From the NCBI GenBank assembly GCA_903945175.1, contig CAJAUM010000101.1, forward strand, positions 1 through 46,160: a stretch of DNA of 46,160 bases. Reading direction: 5' to 3'. Below, piece after piece: positions 10,797-26,112 of the stretch. A program made the position numbers and the translations under genes. Origin of the DNA: an uncultured Bacteroidales bacterium. Lineage in GTDB: Bacteria > Bacteroidota > Bacteroidia > Bacteroidales > FEN-979. The notes beneath the pieces were generated by a model. The model ran no database searches and was not told where the DNA came from. It was given only the letters and a program-made list of their open reading frames with translations. The first letter of the stretch is position 1, and each line of letters starts with the position of its first letter.

Positions 10797-11927
10797 TTAT
10801 TTTACGGGACCAAACACATATAATATTCCGTCCTGGGCGCCGAGAGCGATCATGGCTGAGGTGACGGCCGGGGTGCTTACAATCGGGCTACCGATTTCAT
10901 AGGTCCAGATTTCGTTACCTGTACCGATCTCCAGCACGTGGATCCTTCCGTCGCCCGATGCCGCAATCACCAGGTTCCCTGAAATAACAGGAGATGCATC
11001 CACCTTTCCAAGCGCTTTGTATTTCCAGTTCAAATTGCCGCTTACTGCATCGAAGCAGAAGATATGGCGGTTCTGCGACCCGGTTATAACCTTCCCCGAA
11101 CCAACCGCTGGGGAGGCCATGAAGGGGCCGCCTCCTGGTGTTTTCCAAAGTATCTTTTTTTGTCTCAGATCAAAACAGTAGAAAACGCCATCATAATTTC
11201 CAAAAAAGGCTTTTTCTCCCAGGATGGCGGCTGAAGCAGGGATGTATGTCCCGATGTTGGTTTTGCCGGGCGCCTGCCCGTTTATGATATTCACCAGGTG
11301 CAGAAAACCGTCGCACCCGCCAAAGACAGCCAGCCTCTTGTCAATGGCCGGGGAGCCGTTGATGAAATTCCCCGACTCATATTTCCACAGCGCCTTCCCG
11401 GTGGAGGCCGAGACACAGTGAAGGTTGTAATCATAGCTCCCGACCAGGATGCAGAGCTCTTTCGTTTTAGGCTGGATCACCCAGTTGGCCGAGCCGGAGA
11501 TCTGTCCTTCGGTGATATATTTCCAAATCAGGGTGCCGGTCGCAGCATCCAGCGCATAGAGGATCCCTTCGGTAGAACCTACGTAGATCCGGTTCTTAAG
11601 GAGCAAAGGCGGAGCCTCTACCGAAGTGCCGGCGTTGAATTTCCATTTCAGCTGCCCGGCGGTGGTGATGGCGTAGATGTATCCATCGTCGGAGCCGGTG
11701 TAGATGACGCCCTCCCCGATGACGGGCGAGGATTTGATGACATCTCCGGTTTTGAAGGTCCACAGAAGTTTGAAGGGAGGCCTGAGGGTTGCTTTCGACA
11801 GGCCCGTGAGCTGGGCATTACCCCGGTAGGAGGGCCAAGACTCCTGGCCCTGCAGTTCAATCCCTTTGCAGGTCAGCATGCATAGCAACAGGAACAGGAT
11901 AACCCGGTGGCTGGGGCTCATTCTCAT
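10797..11927 (-). CDS. Secreted PQQ-type beta-propeller protein (fifth of the cluster)
   Basis: The 376-residue protein has an N-terminal signal sequence (hydrophobic VILFLLLCMLTC, cleavage near LQG/QE) and then a BamB/PQQ_2-type propeller. Its repeats carry GxIYxGSxDGxIYAIxxxxGxLxWK-like elements such as VIYTGSDDGYIYAI, RIYVGSTEGILYAL and HIFCFDAVSGNLNW. No quinoprotein dehydrogenase catalytic set (vicinal Cys pair, catalytic Asp, haem) is seen, so a binding or scaffold role is more likely than alcohol oxidation. Its ATG overlaps the upstream flavoprotein stop as ATGA (11924-11927). An exported propeller is thus coupled to a cytoplasmic redox enzyme, which is unusual. The start could also be Met3. 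Confidence 0.85.
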   Translation of the reverse strand: MRMSPSHRVILFLLLCMLTCKGIELQGQESWPSYRGNAQLTGLSKATLRPPFKLLWTFKTGDVIKSSPVIGEGVIYTGSDDGYIYAITTAGQLKWKFNAGTSVEAPPLLLKNRIYVGSTEGILYALDAATGTLIWKYITEGQISGSANWVIQPKTKELCILVGSYDYNLHCVSASTGKALWKYESGNFINGSPAIDKRLAVFGGCDGFLHLVNIINGQAPGKTNIGTYIPASAAILGEKAFFGNYDGVFYCFDLRQKKILWKTPGGGPFMASPAVGSGKVITGSQNRHIFCFDAVSGNLNWKYKALGKVDASPVISGNLVIAASGDGRIHVLEIGTGNEIWTYEIGSPIVSTPAVTSAMIALGAQDGILYVFGPVK

Positions 11928-13510
11928 CGGGAATTCCTTTCTTCCTGTTCTTTAAAGGCCAGCGCACCTGTTGGACATGACTCCACACACTCCCGGGCGG
12001 TGATGGTCAGCGCTGCTTTGATGGTTTCATTGAAAGGAACCGAAATACGCACATCAAAGCCGCGCCCGGCAAAGGTCAGGCCAATGGATTCGCTGTGCAG
12101 GCTTGTGATCTCCACACACAATCCGCACCGGATGCACTTTTCGGTTTCAAAGACTACCAGGTCGTGCTGCACCGACCGGGTCAGCAGGTTCCGGTCGGGG
12201 GCCGCAAATCTCTTCCGGCTGGCATCGTATTGTTCCCCGTATTGCCTGAGTTTGCAGCTCACGGGTTTCCGGCAATCGCAGTGCATGCAGCGCTGCGCTT
12301 CGCGGATGGCCTCTTCGCGGCTGAAACCCTGCAGTTTACCTCCGGCAGGTTCCACCCGGTGATCGGGGATGGCCTCCTGCAGGTATTCTTTCCATTCGGG
12401 TTCAAACAATGATCCGAAGGTGGATACCGACCGCTGTTTGTGGCGAAGGGGGCCCTGGCAGGCTGCAAGGTAGCTTTCCACCCAATGTGCCGCCATTTTA
12501 CCCTGGGCGGCGGAATGGACTGCCATTTTTTGTTCCCGGATGATATTTCCACAGGCAAACACCCCGGGCAAACTGGTACTGAAGGTGTGTTTATCCACCA
12601 ATGCCCCATGTTCATCAGGCTGCAAACCAAATTGTTCGGCGGGATTTGTTCTCTGATTTCCTGTTGCCAGGATGACCGCATCAAATTCACGAAGGATGGT
12701 TTGATGAAACAGCTCCTGACTGACATAGGTACCCAGACGAAATTTCGCCCCCATTCTTCGTATCATTTCAATTTCAGCTTCGAGAACCTCCTTCGGAAGA
12801 TGATCATCCGGGATATCATACTGCATTGCTCCGCCGGCTTTTTCATGTTGATCATACAAAATACAGGAATGACCTGACCGCAAAAGATAGAATGCTGCTG
12901 AAAGTCCGGCAGGCCCTGTACCGATGATAGCAACTTTTTTCCCATTTCGGATGGAAATGCCAGGCAAACCCAGATCCATGATATCTTCATATTGGGCTGT
13001 TGCCCGTTTCAGAAGGCAGATTGAAACCGCCTGATCGATGGGTTTCCTCCGGCAGGCCTTTTCGCATGGAGCAGGGCAGATATGTCCTAAGACAAGTGGC
13101 AGGGCAATCTCCTCGCGTACGATGCGCAAAGCCTGCTTAAAATCACCTGCGGCAATCAACCGGTTCATCAGGGGAATGTCCATAAGGGCAGGACAAGATA
13201 ACCGGCAGGGCGCTTCACAATCGCCCACATGGTCGCTGAGCAGCAATTCGAGGGCCTCACGCCGGGCGGTCACCACCTCTTCTGAGTCAGTAAGGATGTG
13301 CATCCCCTCCGAAACAGGCATGGCACATGAAGGAACAAGGTGATCACGATCAAGATCCTTCACCAGGCATACCATGCAGGACGGATGATTTGAAAAGCCC
13401 GGTTTGAAGCACATTGAAGGAATGGCAATGCCAAGGATGGACGCCGCCTCCATTACGGAAATTCCCTCCTGCACCTCTATTGGAATATGATCGATTGTCA
13501 GCTTTATCAT
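11924..13510 (-). CDS. NuoG-N / GltD-like iron-sulphur flavoprotein, NADPH domain absent
   Basis: The 528-residue cytoplasmic protein begins at MIKLTIDH; its ATG at 13508-13510 comes 1 base after the NuoEF stop. Domains: a NuoG-like [2Fe-2S] ferredoxin (C34, C45, C48, C62); a GltD-like N-terminal Cys region (C98, C102, C106, C145, C149, C153); an FAD Rossmann fold GTGPAG (197-202); a C-terminal Cys-rich region (C408, C411, C413); and a ferredoxin-like part (C459, C462, C465, C508, C512-P). In GltD a second Rossmann fold (GGGxTA) binds NADPH. Here the chain goes directly from FDAVILATG to GVFACGN with only about 30 residues between, so that domain is missing. Reducing power must come from the NuoEF partner or a ferredoxin. 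Substrate unknown. Confidence 0.85.
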   Translation of the reverse strand: MIKLTIDHIPIEVQEGISVMEAASILGIAIPSMCFKPGFSNHPSCMVCLVKDLDRDHLVPSCAMPVSEGMHILTDSEEVVTARREALELLLSDHVGDCEAPCRLSCPALMDIPLMNRLIAAGDFKQALRIVREEIALPLVLGHICPAPCEKACRRKPIDQAVSICLLKRATAQYEDIMDLGLPGISIRNGKKVAIIGTGPAGLSAAFYLLRSGHSCILYDQHEKAGGAMQYDIPDDHLPKEVLEAEIEMIRRMGAKFRLGTYVSQELFHQTILREFDAVILATGNQRTNPAEQFGLQPDEHGALVDKHTFSTSLPGVFACGNIIREQKMAVHSAAQGKMAAHWVESYLAACQGPLRHKQRSVSTFGSLFEPEWKEYLQEAIPDHRVEPAGGKLQGFSREEAIREAQRCMHCDCRKPVSCKLRQYGEQYDASRKRFAAPDRNLLTRSVQHDLVVFETEKCIRCGLCVEITSLHSESIGLTFAGRGFDVRISVPFNETIKAALTITARECVESCPTGALAFKEQEERNSR

Positions 13511-13511
13511 C

Positions 13512-15866
13512 TTAATGAATTGTGATGGCATCAACCGGACAAATTTGCCGGCAAATATCGCATTTTATGCATTTTTCAAGGTCTATCATGTGTTTTTCAT
13601 AGGGTTTGAAGGCAATGGCCTCTGATGGACAGCGTTGGGCACATTTCGTACATCCGATGCAATCGTCATTGACCTCATAATGGATCAGGGGCAGGCATTT
13701 CCCGGCCGGACAGCGTCCATTTAAATGGGCCTCATATTCTTCTCGAAAATTATGCAGGGTGGTAAGCACCGGGTTCGGCGCGGTTTTTCCAAGACCGCAC
13801 AGACTGCCTTTGGAGGTGCTTACAGCCAGTTTTTCCAGTTTGTTCAGATCTTCCGGCTTCCCCTGACCGTTGCGGATCTTCTCAAGTATCTCAAGCATCC
13901 GCCGGGTGCCGATCCGGCAAAAGGTACATCTCCCGCAGGATTGATTTTGTGTGAATGAAAGAAAATAGTGTGCGATATCCACCATGCAATCGGTTTCATC
14001 CAGCACGATCAGTCCGCCCGAGCCCATCATGGTACCTGCCTGCTTCAACGCTTCAAAATCGACGGGCATATCCGCAGCGGAGGCAGGCAAACAGCCTCCC
14101 GAAGGACCGCCGATCTGGACTGCCTTGAATTTCCTCTCCCCGGCAATGCCACCCCCGATCTCCTCCACGATCTGCCGGATGGTGATGCCCATGGGCACCT
14201 CGATCAGGCCTCCGCGTTTAACCTTGCCTGCCAGCGCAAATACCTTGGTTCCCTTGCTTCCGGCCGTGCCGATGGCCGCAAAGGCGCCTGATCCATGATG
14301 CATGATCCAGGGGACCAGCGAAAAGGTCTCTGTGTTGTTGATGAGGGTGGGCTTGTTCCATAATCCTTTAGCGACCGGGTAGGGTGGGCGCATTCGCGGC
14401 ATGCCGCGGTGTCCTTCAACGGAAGCGATAAGGGCCGTCTCCTCTCCGCATACAAAGGCGCCGGCGCCCCCGAAAATGCGGATATCAAAGGAAAAGCCGG
14501 ATCCCCAGATGGATGACCCTATAATGCCGTTTTCTCTGCAAATTTGAATCGCTTCGCCGATCCGCGATACGGCTAACGGATATTCGGCACGGATATAAAA
14601 AATCCCATTGGAAGCTCCGGTTGCGAATCCTGCAATAAGCATCCCCTCGATGATCCGGAAGGGATAGGATTCGAGCAGCATGCGGTCCATAAAGGCGCCG
14701 GGATCGCCCTCATCGCCATTGCAGATCACAAATTTTTCCCTCTCTTCCTGCTCCTTCACCAGCTGCCACTTCCGCCCTGTCGGGAAACCTGCGCCACCAC
14801 GACCCCGCAATCCACTTGAAATGATTTCATTAATCACCCGTTGCGGAGTCATCTCTGTCAGGCATGTTCGCAAGGATTCGAATCCTCCTGCACGGCGGTA
14901 TCCTTCCAGATCGGTAGGATTGGTCACTCCCCGGTTTTCTGTGGCGATGTTTACCTGCGGCCCAAGAAACCTGGTCAACGGCGTGTCACGCTGTTCCCCA
15001 AGGTATCTACGGAATGACTTTGGCGCATGATCGGCAAGCAGGTGCTCGAACATGTTATAAAATCCGCTGCGCAAGCGATTATAATATCCTTCGGGCTGAA
15101 AATGGCTCAGGAGTACCTCCCTCACCTCCTCAGGTTTTATTTTGGCGTAAAAGGCCGGATTTTCGCCCGGTTTGATGATCTCCAGGATGGGAACCTGATT
15201 GCAAATCCCTACACATCCAACCTGCTGCACATCAACCCTGATCTTGTTCTGAGCCAGGGTTTTCTCCATTTGTAATTTCACATCAGAACTGCCGCTTGCC
15301 ACGCAGCACGATCCCAATCCGATGCGGATCTCTCCCTGAACTTTAGATGGATATCCGGGAGATGCATGCACTGTAACAGGATGATTTTTCTTCCTGGAGA
15401 GAAATTCCCGGAGGATCTCTCCCACCTTTTCGGACTCCACGTGACCGAAGGTAACCTCGTCGATACGCACGGCAGGAGCGAGGGTGCAGCAACCCAGGCA
15501 GGCCACCTTTTCGATGGTGAAGATGTAGGAGGCATCCGTGTCCTCATCATGATTCAGCTTCAGTTCCCGACGGAAAGCCTCGTAGACGAACTGCGAACCC
15601 TTGACGTGGCAGGCGGTGCCGGTGCACACGCTGATGCGGTGCTTGCCGGCCGGCTGGTGCCTGAACTGGGTAAAAAAGGTGGAGATCCCTGAGATTTGCG
15701 CCGGGGTGATATCCGTTGTTTCACAAACACGCTTCAGGGCTGCTTCGGGGAGATAGTTGAATTCATGCTGGATATCCTGCAATATCGGAATAACGGCATC
15801 GGCGGTAACCCCGTGGCGGGCTACCAATTGATCTACAGTTTCGTGGATGTGTTGGTTGTTCTTCAA
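13512..15866 (-). CDS. NuoE-NuoF fusion, NADH-oxidising diaphorase subunit (HydC-HydB-like)
   Basis: The 784-residue protein combines subunits usually encoded apart. Residues 1-155 are NuoE-like with a thioredoxin-fold [2Fe-2S] site (C81, C86, C123, C127). Residues about 175-255 form a second thioredoxin-like ferredoxin (C187/C188, C218, C222). Residues about 300-700 are NuoF: FMN/NAD motifs GRGGAGFPTGRKW and GAGAFVCGEETAL, and [4Fe-4S] ligands SCGRCTFC (C644, C647, C650) with C690. The tail has two [4Fe-4S] motifs (C736/739/742/746 and C766/769/772/776). This is the HydB/HydC plan of bifurcating hydrogenases and related Bfu-type enzymes, but no HydA follows. Instead the adjacent flavoprotein gene takes that place. 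An XRE-RhuM pair lies upstream. Confidence 0.92.
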   Translation of the reverse strand: MKNNQHIHETVDQLVARHGVTADAVIPILQDIQHEFNYLPEAALKRVCETTDITPAQISGISTFFTQFRHQPAGKHRISVCTGTACHVKGSQFVYEAFRRELKLNHDEDTDASYIFTIEKVACLGCCTLAPAVRIDEVTFGHVESEKVGEILREFLSRKKNHPVTVHASPGYPSKVQGEIRIGLGSCCVASGSSDVKLQMEKTLAQNKIRVDVQQVGCVGICNQVPILEIIKPGENPAFYAKIKPEEVREVLLSHFQPEGYYNRLRSGFYNMFEHLLADHAPKSFRRYLGEQRDTPLTRFLGPQVNIATENRGVTNPTDLEGYRRAGGFESLRTCLTEMTPQRVINEIISSGLRGRGGAGFPTGRKWQLVKEQEEREKFVICNGDEGDPGAFMDRMLLESYPFRIIEGMLIAGFATGASNGIFYIRAEYPLAVSRIGEAIQICRENGIIGSSIWGSGFSFDIRIFGGAGAFVCGEETALIASVEGHRGMPRMRPPYPVAKGLWNKPTLINNTETFSLVPWIMHHGSGAFAAIGTAGSKGTKVFALAGKVKRGGLIEVPMGITIRQIVEEIGGGIAGERKFKAVQIGGPSGGCLPASAADMPVDFEALKQAGTMMGSGGLIVLDETDCMVDIAHYFLSFTQNQSCGRCTFCRIGTRRMLEILEKIRNGQGKPEDLNKLEKLAVSTSKGSLCGLGKTAPNPVLTTLHNFREEYEAHLNGRCPAGKCLPLIHYEVNDDCIGCTKCAQRCPSEAIAFKPYEKHMIDLEKCIKCDICRQICPVDAITIH

Positions 15867-15885: not shown

Positions 15886-16905
15886 TCAATTGGTTTTCAA
15901 CTTCTTGATTTCTTTATCGAAATCGCTCTCGAACAGTCTGTCCCGGATTACCCGGTATTTTTCAAATTCGTTTTCAGCAAAAGTCCTGGCTATTTCAGTT
16001 GTGACTTTTCCTGCATTGGTCAGAACATCTTTTTCATTGAATTGTAAAAAGGCATCCAGCTTTGTAATCCAGTCGCGCATCTGCATCAGGGTGTGGTTGG
16101 TTGCCTGCAATTCAGCATAATCCAGATACATAGAAACGATGCGGTTAAGTCCGTTCAGTTCCTCCTCTTCCAGATAGTTTTTAGCAATGGTAACATCTGT
16201 TTTTCTAAGATTTCCGTCAGGAGCATTTTTCCAGGAAGTCAAACCCATATGCTGTTTGTGACTATCTGCACGGGATAGAATTATTTCAGCTGCTGTCTGG
16301 CGGGTTATCGCCCAATGAAGTTTGTTTTGTACTGTGGCAAAAAACTTTTGGGTTATCTCGCAGGCCGCATCATAATCAGCGCTGCATTGCGCATAGATAT
16401 CAGTGATTTTCTGGTAGAACCTCCGCTCACTGGATCGTATATCCCGGATCCGGGCTAATTGCTCTTCAAAATAATCGTGACCAAAAATATTGTTCGGATT
16501 TTTAAGTCGTTCATCATCCATGGTAAACCCCTTGATGATGTATTCTTTCAATCGTTCAGTTGCCCATATTCGGAAATGGGTAGCCTGTAGCGAATTTACA
16601 CGGTAGCCAACTGAGATGATGGCATCAAGGTTGTAAAATTTTGTTTTATATACTTTCCCATCTTCGGCAGTATGTTCCAAAATGGAACTAACTGAAAATT
16701 CAACCAATTCACCGCTTTCGAAGATGTTGGTTAAATGTTTGGTAATCGCCGGACGCTGCACGCCGAAAAGTAGCGCTATTTTTTCCTGCGTTAACCAGAT
16801 GTTTTCATTCCGCAGAAATATTTCCACTTTTACTTTGCCCCCCGGGGTGGTGTAGAGCAGAAATTCGGTAAAACTATTATTTGGAACTGGATGTTTGGGT
16901 TTCAT
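15886..16905 (-). CDS. RhuM family protein
   Basis: The 339-residue protein matches the RhuM (virulence RhuM) family found in many bacteria and often in accessory islands. The N-terminal half has EIFLRNENIWLTQEKIALLFG, NLDAIISVGYRVNS and FRIWATERLKEYIIKGF, which are hallmark segments. The N-terminal part resembles a winged helix that could bind DNA, and the C-terminal part is helical. Molecular function is not established. It overlaps the XRE regulator upstream by ATGA (16902-16905), so the two are co-expressed. It is AT-richer than the NuoEF and propeller genes on either side, which suggests a separately acquired module sitting inside the redox cluster. Confidence 0.88.
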   Translation of the reverse strand: MKPKHPVPNNSFTEFLLYTTPGGKVKVEIFLRNENIWLTQEKIALLFGVQRPAITKHLTNIFESGELVEFSVSSILEHTAEDGKVYKTKFYNLDAIISVGYRVNSLQATHFRIWATERLKEYIIKGFTMDDERLKNPNNIFGHDYFEEQLARIRDIRSSERRFYQKITDIYAQCSADYDAACEITQKFFATVQNKLHWAITRQTAAEIILSRADSHKQHMGLTSWKNAPDGNLRKTDVTIAKNYLEEEELNGLNRIVSMYLDYAELQATNHTLMQMRDWITKLDAFLQFNEKDVLTNAGKVTTEIARTFAENEFEKYRVIRDRLFESDFDKEIKKLKTN

Positions 16906-17198
16906 CTGTTTTTCAACTGTTTCAGAATATATTTCACTGCACCTTCAGCGATTGTATTGTCCTCATTTTCATCTATAATGGCGTAAATTTTATCAGACAA
17001 CCATAATTTCATCAACTCTTCCTTATCTGCCTTTAAAAACAACGCTATTTTAGTTACTTGTTCCTTTGTAGCTCTTCTTGAGCCATTTTCAATTTTGCTC
17101 ATGAGCGCCGTATCAACTTCTAAATATGCAGCAACCTGCCTGAGAAGCGATCCGTTCCGCACCCTTATTTCCCTTACTTTTTGACCAAAATTATTCAA
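16902..17198 (-). CDS. XRE-family transcriptional regulator
   Basis: The 98-residue protein has a helix-turn-helix of the Cro/C1 type in its first 65 residues: FGQKVREIRVRNGSLLRQVAAYLEVDTALMSKIENG. The C-terminal part (KADKEELMKLWL...ILKQLKN) is the short helical extension seen in Bacteroidota XRE proteins that accompany RhuM or methylase modules. It is the first gene of a two-gene operon with RhuM and probably represses its own promoter, since a -7 box lies 31 bases upstream. It is AT-rich compared with flanking redox genes. Confidence 0.9.
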   Translation of the reverse strand: MNNFGQKVREIRVRNGSLLRQVAAYLEVDTALMSKIENGSRRATKEQVTKIALFLKADKEELMKLWLSDKIYAIIDENEDNTIAEGAVKYILKQLKNR

Positions 17199-17254: not shown

Positions 17255-19087
17255 TCACCTTCCAATGCAATATAAATTTTTATCCCCCCTGATGATGATT
17301 TTTCCATCGGCAAAGGCCGGTGTGCAAGAGGATCCTTCACCAAGCGGAGATTCACTGATAACCGAATAATTCTGATCGGCCTTGAAAATGTGCATGACTC
17401 CCTTTTTGTCCAGCAGGAAAACATTCCCCTCCACCAGCATGGGAGAGGCAAAAACCGGGGCCTCGTATTCCTGCTCCCAGTATTTGGTGCCGTTTTTTGC
17501 ATCATAACACACCACGGCCCCGTAACTGGTCACCAGGAACAGGTATTTTTCCGTGGCCAGCGGACTTGGGATGTCGGAAAGCCAATCAGATTCCTCCCAC
17601 AGCAACCTGGGTGTCTCCCCGATCGCAATGGCAGAGAGTTTCGAAAAATCATTGACCGCATATACCACGCCGTCGGCGTAGGCCACACTGGGGCCGACCT
17701 CCCCTGCAATACAATCCATGCGCCACAACTCTTTCCCGCTGGCCGGATTGTAGGAGGCGACGATGGGCTCAGCAGCCAGGATCAGTTCTGTTCTTTTCCC
17801 TGTATTCACAATCACCGGAGAGGCCCATGATATCTTTACACTGCGACTGGTTTGCCATGCCTGTTCCCCGGTTTTTCCCGAAAGCGCCATGACGCTGCCT
17901 GAACCCCGCTGGTCGTACTGGATTATGAGCAGGTCATGATACATGATCAGCGAGGAGGAATGGCCATAGTGGTTTTGCGGAACGCCCAGGTTTTTGGACC
18001 AGATCAGATTGCCTTCCAGGTCGAGGGCAAGGAGATCTCCGTTGGCAAAGAGGGCATAGACCCTGCGGCCATCGGTGGTCATGGTGGGGGCGCAGAAACC
18101 GGTTTCGCTTATGACCTTGGGCTCCTGTCCCGGACTGCCGGGGATCTTCTCCGCGATTTTGCGCCAGATCATTGTTCCGCTGTTCAGATCAAAGCAGTAG
18201 ATCTCACGCTTGGTTGCACTGGCACCGGAAAGATAGATCCTGTCGTTCCAGATAATGGGAGAATTGTACCCGGGAAGGGGGATTTCCGTTTTCCATTTGA
18301 TATTTTTCCCGCTCTTCCCATTCCAGCTGGTTGGAATATTCTTTTGCCAGGCCATTCCAAACCCACCCGGCCCCCTGAAGGATGGAAAATTGGCAGCAAT
18401 TTCCTGAGCGGTAGGATAACCCTCCAGGGCTACTTTTGAAATGCCAAGGGTAGCATTTGTACCTCCGGCTGTATCAGTTGTAAGGCTGTCGGGGGGAGTT
18501 CCTGTGTTTAAAACTCCGGATGGCTGAACGTTTTCAGCATTAATTTCTGATCCAGAAGCATCAGGCCGGACCTTGATTGCTTCTGATGCCACCACGAGAT
18601 TTTTCCCCAGCTCACGGTGCGTCAGAAACACAAGGAGCAGGGAGATGACCACGATGGAGATTCCCGTATAAGCCACCCAGATCCGGTTGATTTTCCGCGT
18701 ATGCCAGAAATCTGTTTTTTCCTCCGTTGGAACGTCCGGCAGGGTTTTTTGCATAAGCTCTGCAGTCTTTAAACAAATGACTACAACCAGAAGGCTGAAA
18801 AACAGGAGATAGCCTCCCATCCGTACCTGCCATTGATTGGTAAAAAAGGCTTTCCGGGCAAGCAGATCCAGCTCTCGGATCTCCTGGCGAAGCGCTTCAT
18901 CCTCCGGATTGCTTTGAACCCTGTCAACCAACGCTTTCAGTGCAGGTGAATTTAACGGATCGGAACGTTTGATCTGAATAAAATTTACAATGATCAGCAC
19001 GCAGAGAACTGTCGCAAAAATGGCGCTTGCCGTGGCAATATTTTGCAATAATTTCCGGGTGGAGGCGGATAATTTCGGGTCGTTCAT
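17255..19087 (-). CDS. Membrane protein with three TM helices and a periplasmic PQQ-type propeller
   Basis: The 610-residue protein starts at MNDPKLSAS (ATG 19085-19087, overlapping the polyferredoxin stop as ATGA). TM helices are at about 17-37, 90-108 and 137-156. A polar linker follows to about residue 240, then a PQQ_2-type beta-propeller to the C-terminus (RGPGGFGMAW, repeats such as IIWNDRIYLSG, RRVYALFANGDLLALDL and VFLLDKKGVMHIF). With the N-terminus inside, the topology puts the propeller in the periplasm. It sits directly after the NosR/NapH-like gene and is translationally coupled to it, suggesting they form a membrane complex. No haem or quinone-binding motif is seen. Confidence 0.82.
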   Translation of the reverse strand: MNDPKLSASTRKLLQNIATASAIFATVLCVLIIVNFIQIKRSDPLNSPALKALVDRVQSNPEDEALRQEIRELDLLARKAFFTNQWQVRMGGYLLFFSLLVVVICLKTAELMQKTLPDVPTEEKTDFWHTRKINRIWVAYTGISIVVISLLLVFLTHRELGKNLVVASEAIKVRPDASGSEINAENVQPSGVLNTGTPPDSLTTDTAGGTNATLGISKVALEGYPTAQEIAANFPSFRGPGGFGMAWQKNIPTSWNGKSGKNIKWKTEIPLPGYNSPIIWNDRIYLSGASATKREIYCFDLNSGTMIWRKIAEKIPGSPGQEPKVISETGFCAPTMTTDGRRVYALFANGDLLALDLEGNLIWSKNLGVPQNHYGHSSSLIMYHDLLIIQYDQRGSGSVMALSGKTGEQAWQTSRSVKISWASPVIVNTGKRTELILAAEPIVASYNPASGKELWRMDCIAGEVGPSVAYADGVVYAVNDFSKLSAIAIGETPRLLWEESDWLSDIPSPLATEKYLFLVTSYGAVVCYDAKNGTKYWEQEYEAPVFASPMLVEGNVFLLDKKGVMHIFKADQNYSVISESPLGEGSSCTPAFADGKIIIRGDKNLYCIGR

Positions 19088-20367
19088 GGTTGCTTTTCCT
19101 CCGTTAATGGGGTAACAGGACAATAATCCACACATCGCGCGCAACTGAAGCACCTTCCTTTATTCGGCGTATAATCCGCCTGGTATAGGTTGACGAGCCG
19201 GCGAGCCAGGATGATCCCGAAAATCAAACCGATAAAACATCCCAGAATCCAGCTTCCGATATAAAACTGCCTGAGAACCCATGCTGCCTCTGAATAAATC
19301 TGGGAAATGGGTTTTCCTGATGATTTAAAGGCGGCAATTTCAAAGGTCTCAGGCTGGCCGATCGATGCTGATGGCTCAAGAAGCGCGGCTGCCAGACGAA
19401 CTTTTCCATTTACGCCAGCCAGGGATTCATGAAGCCGCGATCCGGTATAGCCTCCCAGGATGGTGAAAAAGGGAATCAGCACACAAATCAGGATCAGTTT
19501 TCGCAGGGTAACCGTTCGCTCTTCAGGATTTTTACCTGTGACCGGCATATCGATGGCATCATAGGGGCATGAGTCTTCACACAGCCTGCATTGAATGCAT
19601 GCTGCAGGGGTGATGGTCAAATGGCGCCATGAAAACCGGCTGATCCAGTTGAGCAGGACTCCGTAGGGACAGAGGAAGCGGCAGTAGGGCCGGGCGATAA
19701 AAATACCCGAGATCAGTAAGATTCCAGCGAAAAGGAACATCCCAAGGGAGGCATCAAATCTGAATATTCCAACAAAGGGGTCATACCGGCAGATAATGAA
19801 GTCGGTGCCGGTAGCTGCATAGAGGATGGCCAATCCAAGGTACAGATAGGGAATGGATCCGAGTACGGCATTCAGACGAACACCCATCTTTTGCGGTTTG
19901 AATGAAACCAGATCCTGGATGGCCCCGAAGGGACAAACTCCTGCACAAAACGTGCGGCCGAAAAAGAGGGTAAAGATCAAGGGAAGGATAAAAAACCCGA
20001 TCACTGTCAGCGGTATAACATAAGAACCATCAAACAGGGCCAGTGTTACATTTTGGATGGCTCCGATGGAACAGACGCAACCCTCACGGTAAAAACCAAA
20101 ATAGGCCAAAGAAAAGAGGGATATCCAGAAAACACCCATCCGGGATCGTTTTTTCAATACCAGCCAGGTTATGAAGGAGAGGGCTGCGAAAAGAACAACA
20201 AGGTCGATGATTGCGAGCAATGAAGCCCTGGGCAATGGTTGCAGCGTGTCGGGCTGTACATAGCCCGATTCAAATTCAGGCTTTGGAAAGCGCTGCACTC
20301 CATACGCATTCAGAAACTGAATGGTAAATACAAGGATCAGCATACCGAGTGCAAGGCTCTTTTTCAT
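19084..20367 (-). CDS. NosR/NapH-like membrane polyferredoxin
   Basis: The 427-residue membrane protein begins at MKKSLALGML (ATG 20365-20367), 13 bases after the NapG-like stop; the longer frame is discarded. It has about six TM helices, two CxxxCP motifs on the cytoplasmic edge (C141/C145-P and C229/C233-P), and the segment REGCVCSIGAIQN (C97, C99). It also carries two [4Fe-4S] ferredoxin motifs (C257/260/263/267 and C406/409/412/416). This pattern is shared by NapH, NosR C-termini and RdhC-like proteins, which move electrons between quinol and periplasmic or cytoplasmic partners. No NapA, NosZ or reductive dehalogenase gene is present, so the partner is probably one of the propellers. Function inferred. 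Confidence 0.86.
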   Translation of the reverse strand: MKKSLALGMLILVFTIQFLNAYGVQRFPKPEFESGYVQPDTLQPLPRASLLAIIDLVVLFAALSFITWLVLKKRSRMGVFWISLFSLAYFGFYREGCVCSIGAIQNVTLALFDGSYVIPLTVIGFFILPLIFTLFFGRTFCAGVCPFGAIQDLVSFKPQKMGVRLNAVLGSIPYLYLGLAILYAATGTDFIICRYDPFVGIFRFDASLGMFLFAGILLISGIFIARPYCRFLCPYGVLLNWISRFSWRHLTITPAACIQCRLCEDSCPYDAIDMPVTGKNPEERTVTLRKLILICVLIPFFTILGGYTGSRLHESLAGVNGKVRLAAALLEPSASIGQPETFEIAAFKSSGKPISQIYSEAAWVLRQFYIGSWILGCFIGLIFGIILARRLVNLYQADYTPNKGRCFSCARCVDYCPVTPLTEEKQP

Positions 20368-20380
20368 TCCGGTGATATTG

Positions 20381-20971
20381 TCATTTTTTATCGTTGTTGT
20401 TTTCCTGTCCCGGCTGTTTAAACAGGTAGGGCTGGTCAGCCGGAACACGGCTGAATGCATCTGCCGGGCAATTCCGGGCGATGGCGCACTGGTTGCAGTG
20501 TTCACAGATATTTTGCCTGATCTGCAGTTGCAGTGATCCATTGCCAAAGGCGCCGCATCCCTTCACGCACTTACCGCAGCCGATGCACAAGGGTTCGTCA
20601 ATGGAATATTCAAAAAAGGGATCTTCAATAAATTTTCGCTTGATCGCATTGGTCGGGCACAGTTGATTTTCAGCCCCCGTTGTCAGGGTCTTTGTCCCAG
20701 GCTTAAAATACCCGCCACACAAATCGCAATATCCGCACATGGCGTACACGTGTACGCACTTGACCGCCGAAGGGGTGAGCACGCAATTGGTTGCACAGCG
20801 CCCGCATTGGATACACTTGGCCGGATCGAGCTGCCAGACCGTTTGGCCTGAAATGGCTTTTTTCGCCACAAGGGCAGCCAGTCCTCCTACTCCGATGAGA
20901 ACAGAGGCCCTCACGCCGGTCGCCAGAAACTTTCGCCGGTCAATTTTTGGGTTATTTTCTTTCTCTTCCAT
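20381..20971 (-). CDS. NapG-like four-cluster ferredoxin with Tat-type N-terminus
   Basis: The 196-residue protein begins at MEEKENNPK (ATG 20969-20971). The N-terminal IDRRKFLATGVRASVLIGVG looks like a twin-arginine signal, so the folded protein should go to the periplasm. Four [4Fe-4S] Cys sets are visible: C53/56/59/63; C72/79/82/85 with C105-P; C129/132/135/139; and C156/159/162/168-P. The layout resembles NapG/MauM-type ferredoxins that pass electrons from NapH. It is adjacent to the NosR/NapH-like gene, completing a NapGH-like quinol-oxidising pair. The small Cys4 protein gene overlaps its start. Confidence 0.88.
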   Translation of the reverse strand: MEEKENNPKIDRRKFLATGVRASVLIGVGGLAALVAKKAISGQTVWQLDPAKCIQCGRCATNCVLTPSAVKCVHVYAMCGYCDLCGGYFKPGTKTLTTGAENQLCPTNAIKRKFIEDPFFEYSIDEPLCIGCGKCVKGCGAFGNGSLQLQIRQNICEHCNQCAIARNCPADAFSRVPADQPYLFKQPGQENNNDKK

Positions 20972-21191
20972 GTTCAGGGTTGGTATGTTGCATCCTTGCC
21001 TTCTCAAGGCGATGGTCATCAGCTTCCGGCAATTGGCACCGGTTTGATAAATTGCAATTTCCACAGGCAAACTCCCGCCGGCATCTATCTGCTTTGGTCC
21101 AGCGGTGGATCAAACTGCCACTCAACACAGTCAGCGATGAAAAAATACCGCCCCTCACCAACAAACCTATAAATTGCCTTCTGTTTTGCAT
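20952..21191 (-). CDS. Small Tat-type protein with Cys4 motif
   Basis: The 79-residue protein has an RR-containing N-terminus (MQNRRQFIGLLVRGG) followed by a hydrophobic stretch, so it looks like a Tat signal or a membrane anchor. After it comes C37-x5-C43-x2-C46-x5-C52, four cysteines that could hold a [4Fe-4S] cluster or zinc. The tail is charged and Arg-rich. Its last 20 bases overlap the start of the NapG-like gene. I do not recognise the family, but position and Cys pattern suggest a small electron carrier or maturation factor for the NapGH-like complex. Confidence 0.7.
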   Translation of the reverse strand: MQNRRQFIGLLVRGGIFSSLTVLSGSLIHRWTKADRCRREFACGNCNLSNRCQLPEADDHRLEKARMQHTNPEHGRERK

Positions 21192-21200
21192 GTGAAGCCC

Positions 21201-22172
21201 TCAGTTTTTCATTTTTTCGGTAAAAATCCTGATTTGATTTTTCTCCGGATCAAGCACCAGGATCCGCCCTTTTGAATCAACAGCCAAATCAAGGCCATTT
21301 GTCCCTTCAACAAAGGCACCGGATCCAGCGACCAAACAGCTGAAATCACCATTGGGTTTGTAAATCTTGATGCGTTCTAGCCCCTTTTCACTGGTCACGA
21401 ATGATCCATCTGAACGCAAGGCAAAGTGCGAAGGATTGCAGCAACCGCAAAAGCCTTCGATGCTCATCGAGGCCTTCCCCCACGACGAATTAAGTTCCCC
21501 ATCGGGGTTGTATTGTTCGAAGGAATGTCTTCCGGGATTTACCACCCACAGCTCCCCATTCCGGCCAATCCCCAGGTCAAAATAGGGGCTGGGGATCACG
21601 AACCCGGGAATTCCTCTCTCGGGGTCTTTCTGACCTATCCTGGACAACAGATTTCCGGCCGTATTGTAATGATAAACAATTTTATTTCCTGCATCCGCTA
21701 TATAAACATCATTCCCATTGACAGCAATGGAGGTGATGATCGCATGATCATCGCAACTTTTCCATCTCTTCAAAAACTCTCCTGAGATGGAATAAATCTC
21801 AAGATGGTCCCGCATCCCCAGGTAAATGAGCCCATTGGAGGCCACATGGATGCATTGGGCCGATTCGCCCGTGGTAAACCCACCCAATCGCATTCCTGAC
21901 TGATCAAACAGTTCAACACCTGTATCGCCGGAAATGTAAATATGATCGGACTTGTCGACCACGAGTCCGTGAATTCCTTGCAACCCGGGTTTGATTTGCT
22001 GTGTCTCCGCATATCTCACCATGGATGTATCACATGATTTAAGCGAGTCCATCTGATAGGCATACGGATTAATACGGTTATCCGGTTTTGAAAAGAACAG
22101 ATCCCATCCCATGAATACCACCACAACCAACAACAGGATCAATGCACCGGAGATGATTATTTTTCGGTTCAT
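21201..22172 (-). CDS. Membrane-anchored NHL-repeat propeller with CGCCNP motif
   Basis: The 323-residue protein begins at MNRKIIIS (ATG 22170-22172), 1 base after the upstream propeller stop. A single TM helix (about residues 5-23) anchors it. Six or so NHL-type repeats follow: GIHGLVVDKSDHIYISG, ITSIAVNGNDVYIADAGN, FDLGIGRNGELWVVNPG, HFALRSDGSFVTSEKG and GLDLAVDSKGRILVLDP. Between repeats lies GFCGCCNPSHFA with C242, C244 and C245, suited to metal or cluster binding. Other cysteines are C47, C107, C140 and C279. The protein faces the periplasm. Its gene is between a PQQ propeller and the Tat/ferredoxin genes, so it is probably part of the same redox complex. Confidence 0.82.
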   Translation of the reverse strand: MNRKIIISGALILLLVVVVFMGWDLFFSKPDNRINPYAYQMDSLKSCDTSMVRYAETQQIKPGLQGIHGLVVDKSDHIYISGDTGVELFDQSGMRLGGFTTGESAQCIHVASNGLIYLGMRDHLEIYSISGEFLKRWKSCDDHAIITSIAVNGNDVYIADAGNKIVYHYNTAGNLLSRIGQKDPERGIPGFVIPSPYFDLGIGRNGELWVVNPGRHSFEQYNPDGELNSSWGKASMSIEGFCGCCNPSHFALRSDGSFVTSEKGLERIKIYKPNGDFSCLVAGSGAFVEGTNGLDLAVDSKGRILVLDPEKNQIRIFTEKMKN

Positions 22173-22173
22173 A

Positions 22174-23604
22174 TCATTGTGCTTTAACATTGAGACATAC
22201 CATCTGTTTTGAATCACGAACCAGCATGTATCCTCCGGTGATGGCGATGGGCCCCCAGGAATCCTGTCCGTCCATGATCCGTGCTTTGTCAAGTACCTTA
22301 AATTGTGATGCAGAGACTTTGGCAATGGTCATCTCCCCGTCATCATTGAGGATAAAAAATTTTCCATCGGCCATTACGTAGGGCCCCAACCCGAACCGGT
22401 CTGTTTTGCCACTGTTCATCACCGTCTTTTTACAATCATCTGATTTATAACAGGCGAACTGGTTGCGCAAACCACCGGCATCTTTGGGTAAAATTCCATA
22501 GATATAGCCAGCAGAAAAGATAGGAGTTTGCTGTTCTGAGGCCAATCCCTCCTGCGGTTTGAATTTTTGAAGGAGCTTCACGCTGAATAGCCCTGAACTC
22601 CTGGAAAGTTGCAATAAAGCTGATCCTGCGCCATAGCCTGCTGTGAGGAATATCTTCCCATCGTCGAGTATGACCGGTGACGGAGCCATCACGGAGGGTG
22701 CAAATTCAGTTGACTCCCATAAAACCTGTCCCCGGTCGGCCCCTGAGGCTGAAATGCCGCAAACACCTCCGATAGCAGGATATACAAACATTTTTTTCCC
22801 CAGGAATGTCAACGGCATCACCGAGGAATGTGACATTTTCCAACCTTTCGGATTGGGCGTTTCCCAAAGCTTCTTCCCGGTATTGCAGTCAACGGCAATC
22901 AGCAAGGCATTGCCACCCGTGGCGATGATCGCCGTATCACCGTCCAGCAGCGGACATTGCCCTGTATACCAGAAGGGGATTTCTGTTTTATAGGCTTTTT
23001 CAAGGTCGATTCCCCAAAGGAAATCACCGTTGAGGCGGTTCAGGCACATCACCTGGCATTTCGGGCCAATGGTAAGGATAAATTTCTCATTCACGGCGGG
23101 TACGGTTCTCGAAAGGCCATGATTCCTTTTCAGATGGACACGATATCCGCGACGCCAAAGTTCCAAACCGCTCGACAGGGAAAAGCAACGCAGCTGATCC
23201 GCTTTGGAACCCTCATCATAATCGAGCAGGTACACCTTGCCATTGTAAACGGCCGGAGCGGCGTGCCCTTCGCCAAGGCTGACTTTCCAGAGGATGTCAG
23301 GGCCATTCTTTCCAAACCGATCAATCAGCCGGATCGACTCCCTGCTGATGTTATCAAAATCAGGACCCCGGAAACGGGGCCAGTTGGTACCCGGGAGATC
23401 CTGCTCTGATTTGAAAAATGTAAACTCAGCTCCGATCTGTACTGGTTTTCCCTGGGATATTACTCCCTTCTTCCGATTATCCATCCCGGGCACGGATGTT
23501 TTAAATGATTTTACAGGATCATGAAAAAACCACCAGGCGAGCAGGCCAAAAGCCGACAGGATGAATAAAGGAAGGATATACCTGATCAGAGACTTTTTGG
23601 CCAT
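22174..23604 (-). CDS. Membrane-anchored PQQ-type beta-propeller protein
   Basis: The 476-residue protein has an N-terminal TM anchor (LIRYILPLFILSAFGLLAWWF), then a spacer, then the WPRFRGPDFDN motif that opens these propellers. PQQ_2-like blades follow, such as AVYNGKVYLLDYDE, KLWETPNPKG and KIFLTAGYGAGSALLQL. A WSGFR-like or quinoprotein cofactor site is not visible. It is predicted to be periplasmic and anchored in the inner membrane. It follows its secreted relatives by 21 bases and precedes the NHL gene by 1 base, so all belong to one operon. It may be a scaffold or a ligand sensor; exact function not recognisable. Confidence 0.85.
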   Translation of the reverse strand: MAKKSLIRYILPLFILSAFGLLAWWFFHDPVKSFKTSVPGMDNRKKGVISQGKPVQIGAEFTFFKSEQDLPGTNWPRFRGPDFDNISRESIRLIDRFGKNGPDILWKVSLGEGHAAPAVYNGKVYLLDYDEGSKADQLRCFSLSSGLELWRRGYRVHLKRNHGLSRTVPAVNEKFILTIGPKCQVMCLNRLNGDFLWGIDLEKAYKTEIPFWYTGQCPLLDGDTAIIATGGNALLIAVDCNTGKKLWETPNPKGWKMSHSSVMPLTFLGKKMFVYPAIGGVCGISASGADRGQVLWESTEFAPSVMAPSPVILDDGKIFLTAGYGAGSALLQLSRSSGLFSVKLLQKFKPQEGLASEQQTPIFSAGYIYGILPKDAGGLRNQFACYKSDDCKKTVMNSGKTDRFGLGPYVMADGKFFILNDDGEMTIAKVSASQFKVLDKARIMDGQDSWGPIAITGGYMLVRDSKQMVCLNVKAQ

Positions 23605-23625
23605 AGATGTTTCCTCGATGCGAAC

Positions 23626-24888
23626 CTATTTTTTTTGAATATCATATGCCATCAGCACATCGCCACGCCTGACATAAAGGATTCCGCCTTTGATGGAGGG
23701 ATGGGACCAGCAGGGTCCTTTCCCGCCCGGAACCTTGAAGCTGCTGACAAGATCGAATTTTGCGGGATCAGGATTCAGCAATCCCACATTGCCATTTTTT
23801 TCATCATAAATATAGAGCATGCCGTCGGATGCAATGATGGATCCTTTGGTTTGCCAATTGTGGTCATACCCGGCCTTTCCCGTTTTCCAGTCAATGCTGC
23901 ACCAGTTTCCACGGCTGTTGTCAATCCAGTTTGACCCATAGATATGCCCATCAACCAGTACCACGCCCCCGTGGTGGCAATCAAGCACGGTATCGGTCCA
24001 GGCCAGGGAGATGGTATCGGCATTGTCAGATACTTTAAACATGACCCCAACATGGTTGTAGCCTCCGGTGATGTACAAAAAGCCATCCATAAACAGGGGT
24101 GTGATCGTATTGGTTTTAGGCGCCCCCGGCCATACTTTCACACTTTCCTCAGGTTTGAGCGCCGCATAATTATATTTCCAAAGGATTTTTCCGCTTGCCG
24201 GGTCAACGCCCATGAGGTTGTTTGCCATGATGGTCACAATCACGCGCCGATTGCCAATCCTGATCAGGCGGGGCGAAACATAGCCGCTGGTATCATTCAG
24301 GCTTTCAGATTCCCAAATCGTTTCACCTGTTTTCTTATCCAGCGCCACCATCGATGTGCGTGGTCCGGCCGGTGTATAAATAACCATATTGTCCACCAGC
24401 AAAAGGGATTCACATACGCCCCAATCGCCATAAGCGGCCTCAAACTTCCTGGCGGCATTGAACTTCCAGTTGGTTTTTCCATCGGAGGCATTGATGCTGC
24501 TGATGGTCCCGAGTCCACTAAGAACATAAACGCTTCCATTTTCCAGGGTTGGTGTACAACGTGTTTCGGGGAAGGAGCTGTTCCAGGAGGGGCCGAATGG
24601 AACCTGCCAAAGAATTTCACCCTTTATGGTCATGGATGTCAGATAATCGGTGGAATCCTTCATGCCGGTCACGAATACCCTATTCCCATCTGAAACTGCC
24701 GATGCGTATCCTTTGCCGATTCCTGAAGAGGACCACACAAGCGGTGGGCCCTCCGCGGGCCATACCTTGAGTAAGCCTGATTCAGGATAGGTTCCGTCCC
24801 TTTCCGGTCCGCGCCATTGGGAAATCTCCTGTGAATGAAGAGAGAATGAGGTAACCAGCAAAATAAAAAGTGCAAACAGTTTCTTCAT
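23626..24888 (-). CDS. Secreted PQQ-type beta-propeller protein, paralogue 2
   Basis: The 420-residue protein has a signal peptide (MKKLFALFILLVTSFSLHSQ) and begins its mature part EISQWRGPERDGTY. It is clearly paralogous to the product of the adjacent upstream gene (24895-26112): both share QWRGPxRDGxY and GLLKVWPxxGPxLxW, the same blade order and the ending xVYDLRKK/MAYDIQKK. PQQ_2-type blades are evident, for example VYVLSGLGTISSINASDGKTNWK (shown here only as a run of short repeats of that form) and MLYIYDEKNGNVGLL. It starts 6 bases after the upstream gene. The two likely arose by tandem duplication and may form a heteromer. No catalytic residues can be assigned. Confidence 0.86.
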   Translation of the reverse strand: MKKLFALFILLVTSFSLHSQEISQWRGPERDGTYPESGLLKVWPAEGPPLVWSSSGIGKGYASAVSDGNRVFVTGMKDSTDYLTSMTIKGEILWQVPFGPSWNSSFPETRCTPTLENGSVYVLSGLGTISSINASDGKTNWKFNAARKFEAAYGDWGVCESLLLVDNMVIYTPAGPRTSMVALDKKTGETIWESESLNDTSGYVSPRLIRIGNRRVIVTIMANNLMGVDPASGKILWKYNYAALKPEESVKVWPGAPKTNTITPLFMDGFLYITGGYNHVGVMFKVSDNADTISLAWTDTVLDCHHGGVVLVDGHIYGSNWIDNSRGNWCSIDWKTGKAGYDHNWQTKGSIIASDGMLYIYDEKNGNVGLLNPDPAKFDLVSSFKVPGGKGPCWSHPSIKGGILYVRRGDVLMAYDIQKK

Positions 24889-24894
24889 AAATTT

Positions 24895-26112
24895 TTATTT
24901 TTTCCTGAGATCGTAGACCATGATGGAGCTTCCGTGCCTCACAAACAGCCGGCCATTGTCAATCACCAGATGTGCCCAATGCTGATCGGCGCCAAAGGGA
25001 ACTTTGAATGCACTGACCTTTTTGAAGGAATTGGCCAATGGCTCTGCAAGAACCACCTCCCCGTTATCCCCGTACAAATACAACATTCCATCAGCAAAGA
25101 TGATGTTTCCCCGTCCGGTAATTTTTTCCCCGAACATTTTTGTTCCCGTTTTCCAATCGAGGCAGTACCAGGCTTTCCCTGAATCATCCGAACCGAAAAT
25201 CTTTCCATTTACCAGCACAAATCCACCCATCCGGTTATCAATATCTGTATTTCGCCAAAGCTCCTGAACAGCGGTTCCGTCTTCTGAAACCTTCAGCATC
25301 ACGCCCCCTTTTCCATAACCGGAAACACAGTAAAGCATTCCCGCATGAAAGAGCGGAGTATTTGCATGAACAGAGTATTTATTTGGCTGATCATGACTCC
25401 ACAATAATTTTCCGTTTGACGCGTCGATCCCCAGGATCGAATTGGCTGTCTGCGTCACCAGGATGTGACGGCTGGCCAGTTTAATCAGAGCCGGGGAACC
25501 ATAGGCGCTTGATTCGCCTTTGCCGCTGCTTTTCCAGATCAGCTTTCCTGTATTCGGATCCAGCGCAACCACATTGAACTCCGCTCCTCCCACAGTACAA
25601 AAGAGTTTATTTCCATCGATCAGCAGGTTTTCCGTCACGCCCCATTTGATGTTGGGGCCCTGGTAATCTTTCAGCATATCAACACTCCAGATAAAATCTC
25701 CGTTATCGGCCCTCCTGCATACAAGCTTACCGAAGCCGCTGTACTGGTAAATCTTCCCGTTTGAAATGAGCGGTGTGCTTCGCACCCCCGGCCAGCTTTC
25801 AGTCCATTCCTCTCCGTATGGGACTTTCCATAATAAGTTGCCTTTAAAGTCAAAACAGAAGAGATAGCCAATGCCCTCGAGAATTCCGGCTGTATAGATC
25901 CTGTCGGTGGTTACAGCGGCTGATGCATGTCCCTCCCCTAAACCATCGAAATGCCACAGCAGTGCCGGACCATTTTCCGGCCAGACCTTTAACAATCCGG
26001 TTTCATTGTAAATACCATCACGGTTGGGACCACGCCATTGAGCCAGATCCTGGGACAAGAGATAATTATTTAGAAGGGAAACACAAATCAGTAAAAACAA
26101 GGGTTTTTTCAT
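24895..26112 (-). CDS. Secreted PQQ-type beta-propeller protein, paralogue 1
   Basis: The 405-residue protein starts at MKKPLFLLICV (ATG 26110-26112), since the longer frame lacks a signal sequence at its front. The signal peptide ends near NYLLSQ. The mature part opens QWRGPNRDGIY and has blades such as RIYTAGILEGIGYLF, KIYQYSGFGKLVC and MLYLYGDNGEVVLAEP. It is the first propeller of the long minus-strand cluster and lies 54 bases behind the guanine deaminase gene. It may therefore be co-transcribed with it. A role in substrate binding or as a periplasmic redox scaffold is inferred from neighbours, not from catalytic residues. Confidence 0.86.
   Translation of the reverse strand: MKKPLFLLICVSLLNNYLLSQDLAQWRGPNRDGIYNETGLLKVWPENGPALLWHFDGLGEGHASAAVTTDRIYTAGILEGIGYLFCFDFKGNLLWKVPYGEEWTESWPGVRSTPLISNGKIYQYSGFGKLVCRRADNGDFIWSVDMLKDYQGPNIKWGVTENLLIDGNKLFCTVGGAEFNVVALDPNTGKLIWKSSGKGESSAYGSPALIKLASRHILVTQTANSILGIDASNGKLLWSHDQPNKYSVHANTPLFHAGMLYCVSGYGKGGVMLKVSEDGTAVQELWRNTDIDNRMGGFVLVNGKIFGSDDSGKAWYCLDWKTGTKMFGEKITGRGNIIFADGMLYLYGDNGEVVLAEPLANSFKKVSAFKVPFGADQHWAHLVIDNGRLFVRHGSSIMVYDLRKK

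Follow-up and report, generated by a model that had tools for sequence, protein, structure and literature searches.

A conserved and apparently undescribed Bacteroidales operon joins a predicted Bfu-type core to NapGH-like ferredoxins and propeller proteins

In the proposal of Schut et al. 2022 (PMC9304861), the electron-bifurcating enzymes of the Bfu family link NAD(H) and ferredoxin with a third substrate. Section 5 of that paper gives H2, formate, NADP, aldehydes, or menaquinone reached via complex-I-like subunits as known or predicted partners, and 17 BfuB clades are described in the paper as having no obvious function. Here we describe an operon in which a predicted Bfu core is encoded next to NapGH-like ferredoxin proteins and a set of propeller proteins. 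It lies on a stretch of 46,160 nucleotides (contig CAJAUM010000101.1, positions 1 to 46,160, forward strand) from an uncultured Bacteroidales bacterium, GCA_903945175.1. This whole stretch, hereafter the window, is contig C101 of the source genome, which comprises 155 contigs and 4.4 Mb. About eleven bacterial genes form a conserved set that appears to encode one redox machine. An earlier note on this DNA had proposed an undescribed respiratory or redox system, and no matching description was found in the literature searched, a limited collection. The operon is real and conserved, and apparently undescribed. Its genes and those within or beside it, all on the minus strand, are given below in the direction of transcription (PQQ, pyrroloquinoline quinone; Tat, twin-arginine translocation; FMN, flavin mononucleotide; FAD, flavin adenine dinucleotide), with the basis of each annotation in brackets.

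24895..26112, minus strand: PQQa, secreted PQQ_2-type propeller, 405 residues (Pfam PQQ_2, 81.9 bits)
23626..24888, minus strand: PQQb, secreted PQQ_2-type propeller, 420 residues (Pfam PQQ_2, 101.5 bits)
22174..23604, minus strand: PQQc, PQQ_2-type propeller anchored in the membrane at its N-terminus, 476 residues (PQQ_2, 55.1 bits)
21201..22172, minus strand: NHL propeller, anchored at its N-terminus, in which a GCCNP motif is invariant, 323 residues (Pfam NHL, 43.5 bits)
20952..21191, minus strand: Tat-type Cys4 peptide with a twin-arginine start, 79 residues (translation)
20381..20971, minus strand: NapG-like Tat ferredoxin with four predicted [4Fe-4S] clusters, 196 residues (Fer4 families)
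19084..20367, minus strand: NapH/NosR-like membrane polyferredoxin, 427 residues (Fer4_5 and Fer4; TIGR02163 63.4 bits, under the cut-off)
17255..19087, minus strand: PQQd, propeller behind about three predicted transmembrane segments, 610 residues (PQQ_2, 102.2 bits; hydropathy)
16902-17198, minus strand: helix-turn-helix gene with a TTG start (HTH_31, 29.9 bits)
15886-16905, minus strand: RhuM-family gene (PF13310, 370.2 bits)
13512..15866, minus strand: predicted fused BfuC-BfuB (NuoE, extra 2Fe-2S, NuoF with FMN, C-terminal 2[4Fe-4S]), 784 residues (Pfam domains)
11924..13510, minus strand: predicted BfuA without an NADP(H) domain (2Fe-2S, Fer4_20, truncated FAD domain, C-terminal iron-sulfur part), 528 residues (structure-chain alignment)
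10797..11927, minus strand: PQQe, secreted PQQ_2-type propeller, 376 residues (PQQ_2, 167.7 bits)
9441..10739, minus strand: glycosyltransferase, 3' of PQQe in many relatives (Glycos_transf_1, 66.2 bits; gene order)

Four groups of described systems come close to parts of this locus. With Nfn-Bfu and Stn it shares the BfuB/BfuC cofactor set and, in BfuA, the N-terminal 2Fe-2S, Fer4_20 and GltD-like FAD start; the reference structures are 8oh5, taken as StnABC with its chain C of 1172 residues as in PMC10482914, and 9n5u, whose chains are named NfnA/NfnB. Unlike in those enzymes, BfuC and BfuB are fused here, BfuA has neither the NADP(H) domain nor an FdhF-like C-terminus, the FAD domain too is gone in four relatives, and NapGH-like and propeller genes adjoin. 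Since the NADP site is missing, we class the core in the cytoplasm with the Bfu enzymes and not with Nfn-Bfu. Nuo-Bfu and Mbh-Bfu likewise connect a Bfu core with a module in the membrane, a link predicted for them in PMC9304861 and for our locus here. In contrast to these, no proton-pumping complex-I or hydrogenase subunits are found among the Pfam matches of the operon, and its membrane part is NapH/NosR-like. PQQc shares its fold with BamB and tetrathionate hydrolase at 14-19% identity, but is membrane-anchored, has invariant motifs of its own and belongs to a redox operon. Finally, NapGH, NosR and MauM/MauN share with our locus a Tat four-cluster ferredoxin and a membrane polyferredoxin with two CX3CP and two [4Fe-4S] motifs. 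However, the cut-offs of the family models are missed and the operon has no gene for a nap or nos enzyme; because of the missed cut-offs, the pair is not filed as NapGH and is called NapH/NapG-like.

The operon is a real conserved unit, beyond what chance would give, because of the gene order around its NapG-like gene in other genomes. A species-genome collection was scanned with the NapG alignment (the window and 18 of 30 homologues), and the best 80 of at least 570 confirmed relatives were taken as anchored loci. Neighbours were counted on the same strand, loci with too little flank being set aside; the filter for overlapping open reading frames (ORFs) gives some false misses (BfuA of L194 and L195 was recovered later), and loci L062-L101 and L102-L181 overlap in some genomes. 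PQQa/b-type genes are found upstream in 60/66 loci, and the other neighbours are PQQc (65/68, the most conserved propeller), NHL (64/73), NapH-like (73/77), PQQd (62/69), NuoE-NuoF (54/58), GltD-like (49/55) and PQQe (36/52). ORFs resembling the Tat-Cys4 peptide number 31 at E <= 1e-3. Over 51 loci, two upstream PQQa/b copies are present in 23, three in 13, one in seven, none in six and four in two; six copies are listed for L123. A glycosyltransferase and an ATP-binding cassette (ABC)/FtsX pair often lie 3' of the operon. Pairwise distances of five operon proteins correlate at 0.75-0.92 over 50 loci, with no control gene for comparison. The earlier note had named propeller genes scattered without the ferredoxin genes as the finding that would speak against a system; looked at from the ferredoxin side, this is not the rule, although some loci are rearranged.

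Within the window, every gene that the note had named (five PQQ-type propellers, NHL, Cys4, NapG-like, NapH-like, NuoE-NuoF and GltD-like) is present at its place on the minus strand, and ATGA overlaps fall exactly at 19084-19087 and 11924-11927. PQQa-PQQb, PQQb-PQQc, PQQc-NHL and NHL-Cys4 are separated by 6, 21, 1 and 9 bases; Cys4 overlaps the NapG-like gene by 20 bases, 13 bases separate the latter from the NapH-like gene, and this overlaps PQQd by 4. In the second block, one base lies between NuoE-NuoF and BfuA, and BfuA overlaps PQQe by 4 bases. These short distances agree with the two tight sub-operons that had been described; the description omitted the helix-turn-helix and RhuM genes between the blocks. 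PQQd and NuoE-NuoF are direct neighbours in many relatives, and therefore we are dealing with one operon, interrupted in this genome. The two intervening genes are probably an insertion outside the system, since RhuM is found in only five of the 80 loci and at differing spots (after PQQd in two, between PQQc and NHL in two). Co-directional RhuM-family genes within or near the operon occur at window 15886-17198 and in L065, L128, L129, L145, L149 and L122; their placement at two different spots looks as if they had been inserted without breaking the direction of transcription.

The NuoE-NuoF fusion is, as judged from its sequence, the BfuC and BfuB core of the Bfu electron-bifurcating family (HydBC/StnAB-type). 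Its closest solved chains are 9bov_B (676 bits), 8oh5_B (674) and 9n5u_B (665), followed by HydB chains of bifurcating hydrogenases (572-610). Scores against non-bifurcating proteins are 377 bits for a formate dehydrogenase beta chain, 362 for Nqo1 and about 330-342 for NuoF chains. PF01512, PF10589, PF14697 and PF01257 match above their gathering scores, and the C-terminal clusters align with those of 9bov_B, 8oh5_B and 9n5u_B; ferredoxin contact has been placed at the BfuB C-terminus (PMC10482914). Chemistry of FMN with NADH is known for BfuB from its family. BfuB and BfuC are described in PMC9304861 by their domains (FMN 51K, SLBB, NADH_4Fe-4S and C-terminal 4Fe-4S in BfuB, 2Fe-2S in BfuC) and by the cysteines of six clusters, those beyond B1 being absent in non-bifurcating homologues. 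Cluster cysteines are kept in 71-73 of 73 homologues (72/72 at two columns); in this and the other cysteine counts, identical copies, X-bearing sequences and fragments (NuoE-NuoF under 700 residues, BfuA under 300, NapH-like under 380, NapG-like under 170, NHL under 280) were left out. Six clusters are thus predicted, the assignment of cysteines to named clusters being our own reading. The stretch DPGAFMDR is present in 73/73 homologues and fits A202 and M204 of A. mobile, although the numbering is unaligned; together with F182 these are the Bfu-specific residues near FMN (PMC9304861). In a BfuB-type tree, all 31 sampled sequences (of 73) form one group that excludes five same-genome paralogues; the support is weak, 0.36 after rerooting. 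Complex-I-type NADH input was considered and rejected: the NuoF equivalog TIGR01959 scores 457.5 bits with a cut-off of 558.65, and extra ferredoxin clusters are present. The earlier idea of an NAD(H)-flavin module beside NapGH-like parts stands, but the module is a predicted Bfu bifurcating core involving ferredoxin and not a complex-I-type input. Bifurcation by this core is inferred from these likenesses.

The source genome also holds three other BfuB-type frames, an F-type ATP synthase a subunit, and four proteins that match the [FeFe]-hydrogenase catalytic family. One of the four also carries histidine-kinase domains: on contig C133 (L191:9264-11243, plus strand), this 660-residue protein has HisKA and HATPase C-terminal to its hydrogenase catalytic part, and a HydA gene adjoins; from its domains it is likely an H2-sensing kinase.

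The GltD-like protein is BfuA without the NADP(H) domain, as far as alignment to solved chains can tell. It aligns with residues 5-290 and then 421-675 of 9bov_A, and with 8-290 and then 415-675 of 8oh5_C. What is skipped in between corresponds to the Rossmann domain for NADP(H), and an FdhF-like C-terminus is lacking as well (StnC domains as described in PMC10482914). The same genome provides an internal control, an intact StnC-like protein of 1233 residues with a full Pyr_redox_2 match and BfuB and BfuC genes of its own adjoining. The short form is usual: 72 of 81 homologues have 483-571 residues, two have 867 and seven are shorter, and BfuA of the same NADP-less length is also found in L193, L194, L195 and L202 from the class of a genome titled candidate division KSB1. 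A glycine-rich FAD motif is matched in 64/73 homologues, 104-141 residues before the second motif in the 35 that have both; five of the nine without the first motif are full length. In L080, L083, L088 and L093 BfuA has 323-366 residues, matches only Fer2_4 and Fer4_20 (Fer4_Nqo3 in one) and is without the FAD domain, with its iron-sulfur cysteines kept. Thus, the GltD-like flavoprotein of the earlier note exists, but its pyridine-nucleotide domain is lost, as is the FAD domain in these four relatives. BfuA looks like an iron-sulfur wire to a non-NADP partner, most likely the NapH/NapG-like proteins beside it, because the NADP site and then, in some, the flavin domain were lost while the clusters were kept. 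In L064 (4451-7051, minus strand; the same frame in L181) BfuA reads on into a transmembrane-like segment and PQQe, giving an 867-residue frame; this is a single genome in two records, suggestive and possibly a sequencing slip.

Cysteines are also kept in the predicted membrane and periplasmic ferredoxins. The NapH-like protein has 15 cysteines in 98/98 homologues and several hydrophobic segments by hydropathy. The NapG-like protein has an RR-x-F start and 16 cysteines in 95/95 (94/94 at one column). In L062:8308-8961 a single protein unites a Tat start, a Cys4 stretch and the NapG clusters; at window 20381-21191 the Cys4 peptide and the NapG-like protein are two overlapping genes, each with a Tat-type start. 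NapH/NosR-type proteins carry electrons across the membrane. Electron flow between NAD(H), a flavin, quinones and a periplasmic propeller complex, as first suggested, agrees with the co-location of the parts, and the quinone step may be proposed by analogy with NapH.

We propose that the operon encodes one membrane-spanning redox complex. Its cytoplasmic Bfu core, with FMN and six predicted iron-sulfur clusters, would exchange electrons with NAD(H) and ferredoxin together, and BfuA would serve as the wire that leads to the NapH-like membrane protein and its clusters on the cytoplasmic side. The electrons would go on, directly or via menaquinone, to the periplasmic four-cluster NapG-like protein and from it to an acceptor bound by the anchored propellers of NHL and PQQ type; among these, PQQc is the likeliest place for a ligand. 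The favoured direction is reductive: NADH and reduced ferredoxin would supply electrons of about -400 mV to the periplasm, a value that is our own arithmetic for the joint oxidation of NADH (about -280 mV) and ferredoxin (about -500 mV; PMC9304861, Table 1). What the sequences show is the gene set with its order and conservation, the kept cysteines and the lost domains; the BfuA-NapH transfer, the direction and the single physical complex are what we infer. To the whole proposal of one transmembrane Bfu-NapGH-propeller complex working reductively we give a probability of roughly 0.5. That a Bfu core has a transmembrane iron-sulfur conduit as its third partner, in place of a cytoplasmic substrate, and sends low-potential electrons from NADH and ferredoxin to a propeller-bound periplasmic acceptor is our leading explanation, held tentatively and at somewhat less than even odds; it would make this a new kind of transmembrane bifurcating complex in anaerobes.

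Several observations weigh against this proposal. The NapH-like protein misses the cut-offs of TIGR02163 (63.4 of 213.05 bits), NF007013 (57.5 of 234) and NosR (39.6 of 1000), no NapG model is among the matches of the NapG-like protein at E <= 0.001, and the SLBB domain of BfuB (PF10531) reaches 26.2 bits, slightly below the gathering score of 27. Any redox cofactor or substrate on the propellers is putative. Gene order differs in L147; L197 has PQQc, NapH and PQQd but no NuoE-NuoF within 16 kb, other ORFs follow PQQd in L199, and in L202 NapG lies close to a NuoE-NuoF piece without NapH and PQQd. Among 198 genomes of the same order the NapH-like search gave 39 genomes with a match at E <= 1e-20, comprising 34 strong ones (the source genome included) and five weak and partial ones. 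For the GltD-like protein, 27 genomes have a match with E < 1e-80, all within the 34, which counts in favour of the proposal; ten further genomes gave weak best matches (about 1e-61 to 1e-64) in frames of 1164-1268 residues, the size of intact StnC-type proteins. NapH and BfuA share a contig in 18 of the 27 and lie on different contigs in nine, all fragmented assemblies; several of the split cases are at contig ends, and some have another setting (e.g. L068/L069, L073/L097, L087/L099).

Such splits, the few loci with NapH and PQQd but no adjoining NuoE-NuoF, and the insertion that parts both halves in the window would fit two systems sharing one operon, a soluble Bfu enzyme with a cytoplasmic partner and a NapGH-like/propeller system fed by menaquinol. 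We consider this rather unlikely: NuoE-NuoF is next in 54 of the 58 NapG-anchored loci, strong BfuA matches are confined to genomes with the NapH-like gene (27/27), the site for the known cytoplasmic partner is missing from BfuA, and in one genome BfuA reads on into a transmembrane segment and the PQQe propeller.

Propellers are common folds of periplasmic oxidoreductases. By hydropathy, PQQd has about three transmembrane segments, and PQQc and NHL have one each near the N-terminus. An NHL alignment was built from the window and 23 of 27 homologues. Vicinal cysteines are present in 88/88 NHL homologues; the NHL model (mean predicted local distance difference test, pLDDT, 91.7) is an ordinary NHL propeller fold, and searches returned ordinary NHL/TRIM propellers only, with no functional clue. 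The PQQc alignment (the window and 44 of 90 homologues) has many invariant columns among its 45 sequences. Many of these motifs fall in loops before short inner strands, as read from the secondary structure of the model (pLDDT 90.3), which suggests the loops as a candidate ligand site. A PQQ enzyme was rejected: TIGR03075 gives at most 71.2 of 480.05 bits over the five propellers, family scores thus being far under the cut-off, and among the fold matches a PQQ dehydrogenase comes no higher than rank 48. The PQQc model resembles BamB and tetrathionate hydrolase, BamB being nearest in fold; tetrathionate hydrolase as the function was rejected since the sequence match is weak (E 9e-6).

The conserved polar loops of PQQc, and the frequency of propeller folds among periplasmic oxidoreductases, would also suit the same complex run in reverse, with the propellers oxidising a low-potential periplasmic substrate and NapG/NapH and BfuA reducing NAD+ and ferredoxin together. 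Known Bfu enzymes are often bifurcating oxidases, e.g. of formate, aldehydes and H2 (PMC9304861). However, such a substrate would need a potential close to -400 mV or lower, the operon gave no match to dehydrogenase, hydrogenase or cytochrome models, and the propellers are far under PQQ-enzyme cut-offs. Reversed flow is therefore judged unlikely. In line with the earlier note, no cytochrome, hydrogenase or molybdenum-reductase model matched the genes of the block at E <= 0.001, the small ORFs being only partly scanned.

The nearness of PQQc to BamB bears on another explanation, a maturation or envelope-quality system in which BamB-like or scaffold propellers accompany a ferredoxin chain that reduces or assembles a periplasmic protein or metal centre. 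MauM/MauN-type proteins have been suggested to supply reducing power for such maturation. The NapH/MauN family likeness, the glycosyltransferase and ABC/FtsX genes that often follow, and the lack of an encoded enzyme in the operon agree with it, but no recurrent client metalloenzyme gene lies beside the operon in the gene listings, in which unlabelled ORFs were not run against family libraries. We regard it as improbable and return to the reductive transmembrane complex as the preferred reading.

The operon is patchily distributed, being frequent in the order of the window and present in at least one other class. Most of the 80 best NapG-anchored loci are from Bacteroidales. Among the matches listed, the nearest named relatives of the NapG-like gene are uncultured Bacteroidales, and named records with the operon include Labilibaculum, Ancylomarina, Perlabentimonas and Mangrovibacterium. 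In a 395-genome sample of the phylum, only the source genome matched at E <= 1e-40. A NapG-like gene is present in 14/63 genomes of the KSB1-titled class, and 13 of the 14 positives were looked at; L165, L162, L193, L194 and L195 have all or much of the gene order, and L197, L199 and L202 depart from it. In the class of a Cyclobacteriaceae-titled genome, the one positive among 99 genomes is that genome itself.

The opposite strand beside the operon, on which the earlier note is silent, encodes YgfK (849 bits against a cut-off of 835.3) and a xanthine dehydrogenase of the selenium-dependent type (849.6 bits against 830.45). They are part of a region of anaerobic purine-degradation type (window 26772-43810, plus strand, and 26167-26640, minus strand), which also has an SsnA-like amidohydrolase (below the cut-off), two PALP enzymes and a guanine-deaminase-like protein. 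Their divergent, adjoining position could mean that the operon supplies them with electrons. Yet none of the 80 anchored loci carries XdhD, either PALP gene, SsnA or the deaminase, and YgfK has one weak match (31% identity, in L144). Because of these absences the purine genes are best read as neighbours only, and an electron link to them is very improbable. At window 31732-33663 (plus strand), between a PALP and a metallophosphoesterase gene, is a gene for a 643-residue protein that begins with a signal-like stretch and matches neither Pfam nor NCBIfam models at E <= 0.001. Two overlapping small genes at window 8850-9469 (minus strand), by eye a ParE/RelE-type toxin and its antitoxin, lie between the glycosyltransferase and the ABC genes.

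Two genome-wide associations were also tried, both as raw counts. A role as a simple stand-in for Rnf was rejected: RnfC is found in 24/34 cluster-bearing and 138/164 other genomes, although the source genome gave no RnfC match, nor did close relatives of it (e.g. G100 and G119). For nitrite ammonification there is no clear association (NrfA in 18/34 and 69/164 genomes), and NrfA has no match in the source genome.

If the proposal is true, anaerobes would have in this operon a new link between the redox pools of their cytoplasm and the periplasm, and BfuB homologues of unassigned function could gain a partner. What annotation blurs into PQQ-like, NapH-like and NuoF-like genes would then become a testable complex in genera such as Labilibaculum, Ancylomarina, Perlabentimonas and Mangrovibacterium.

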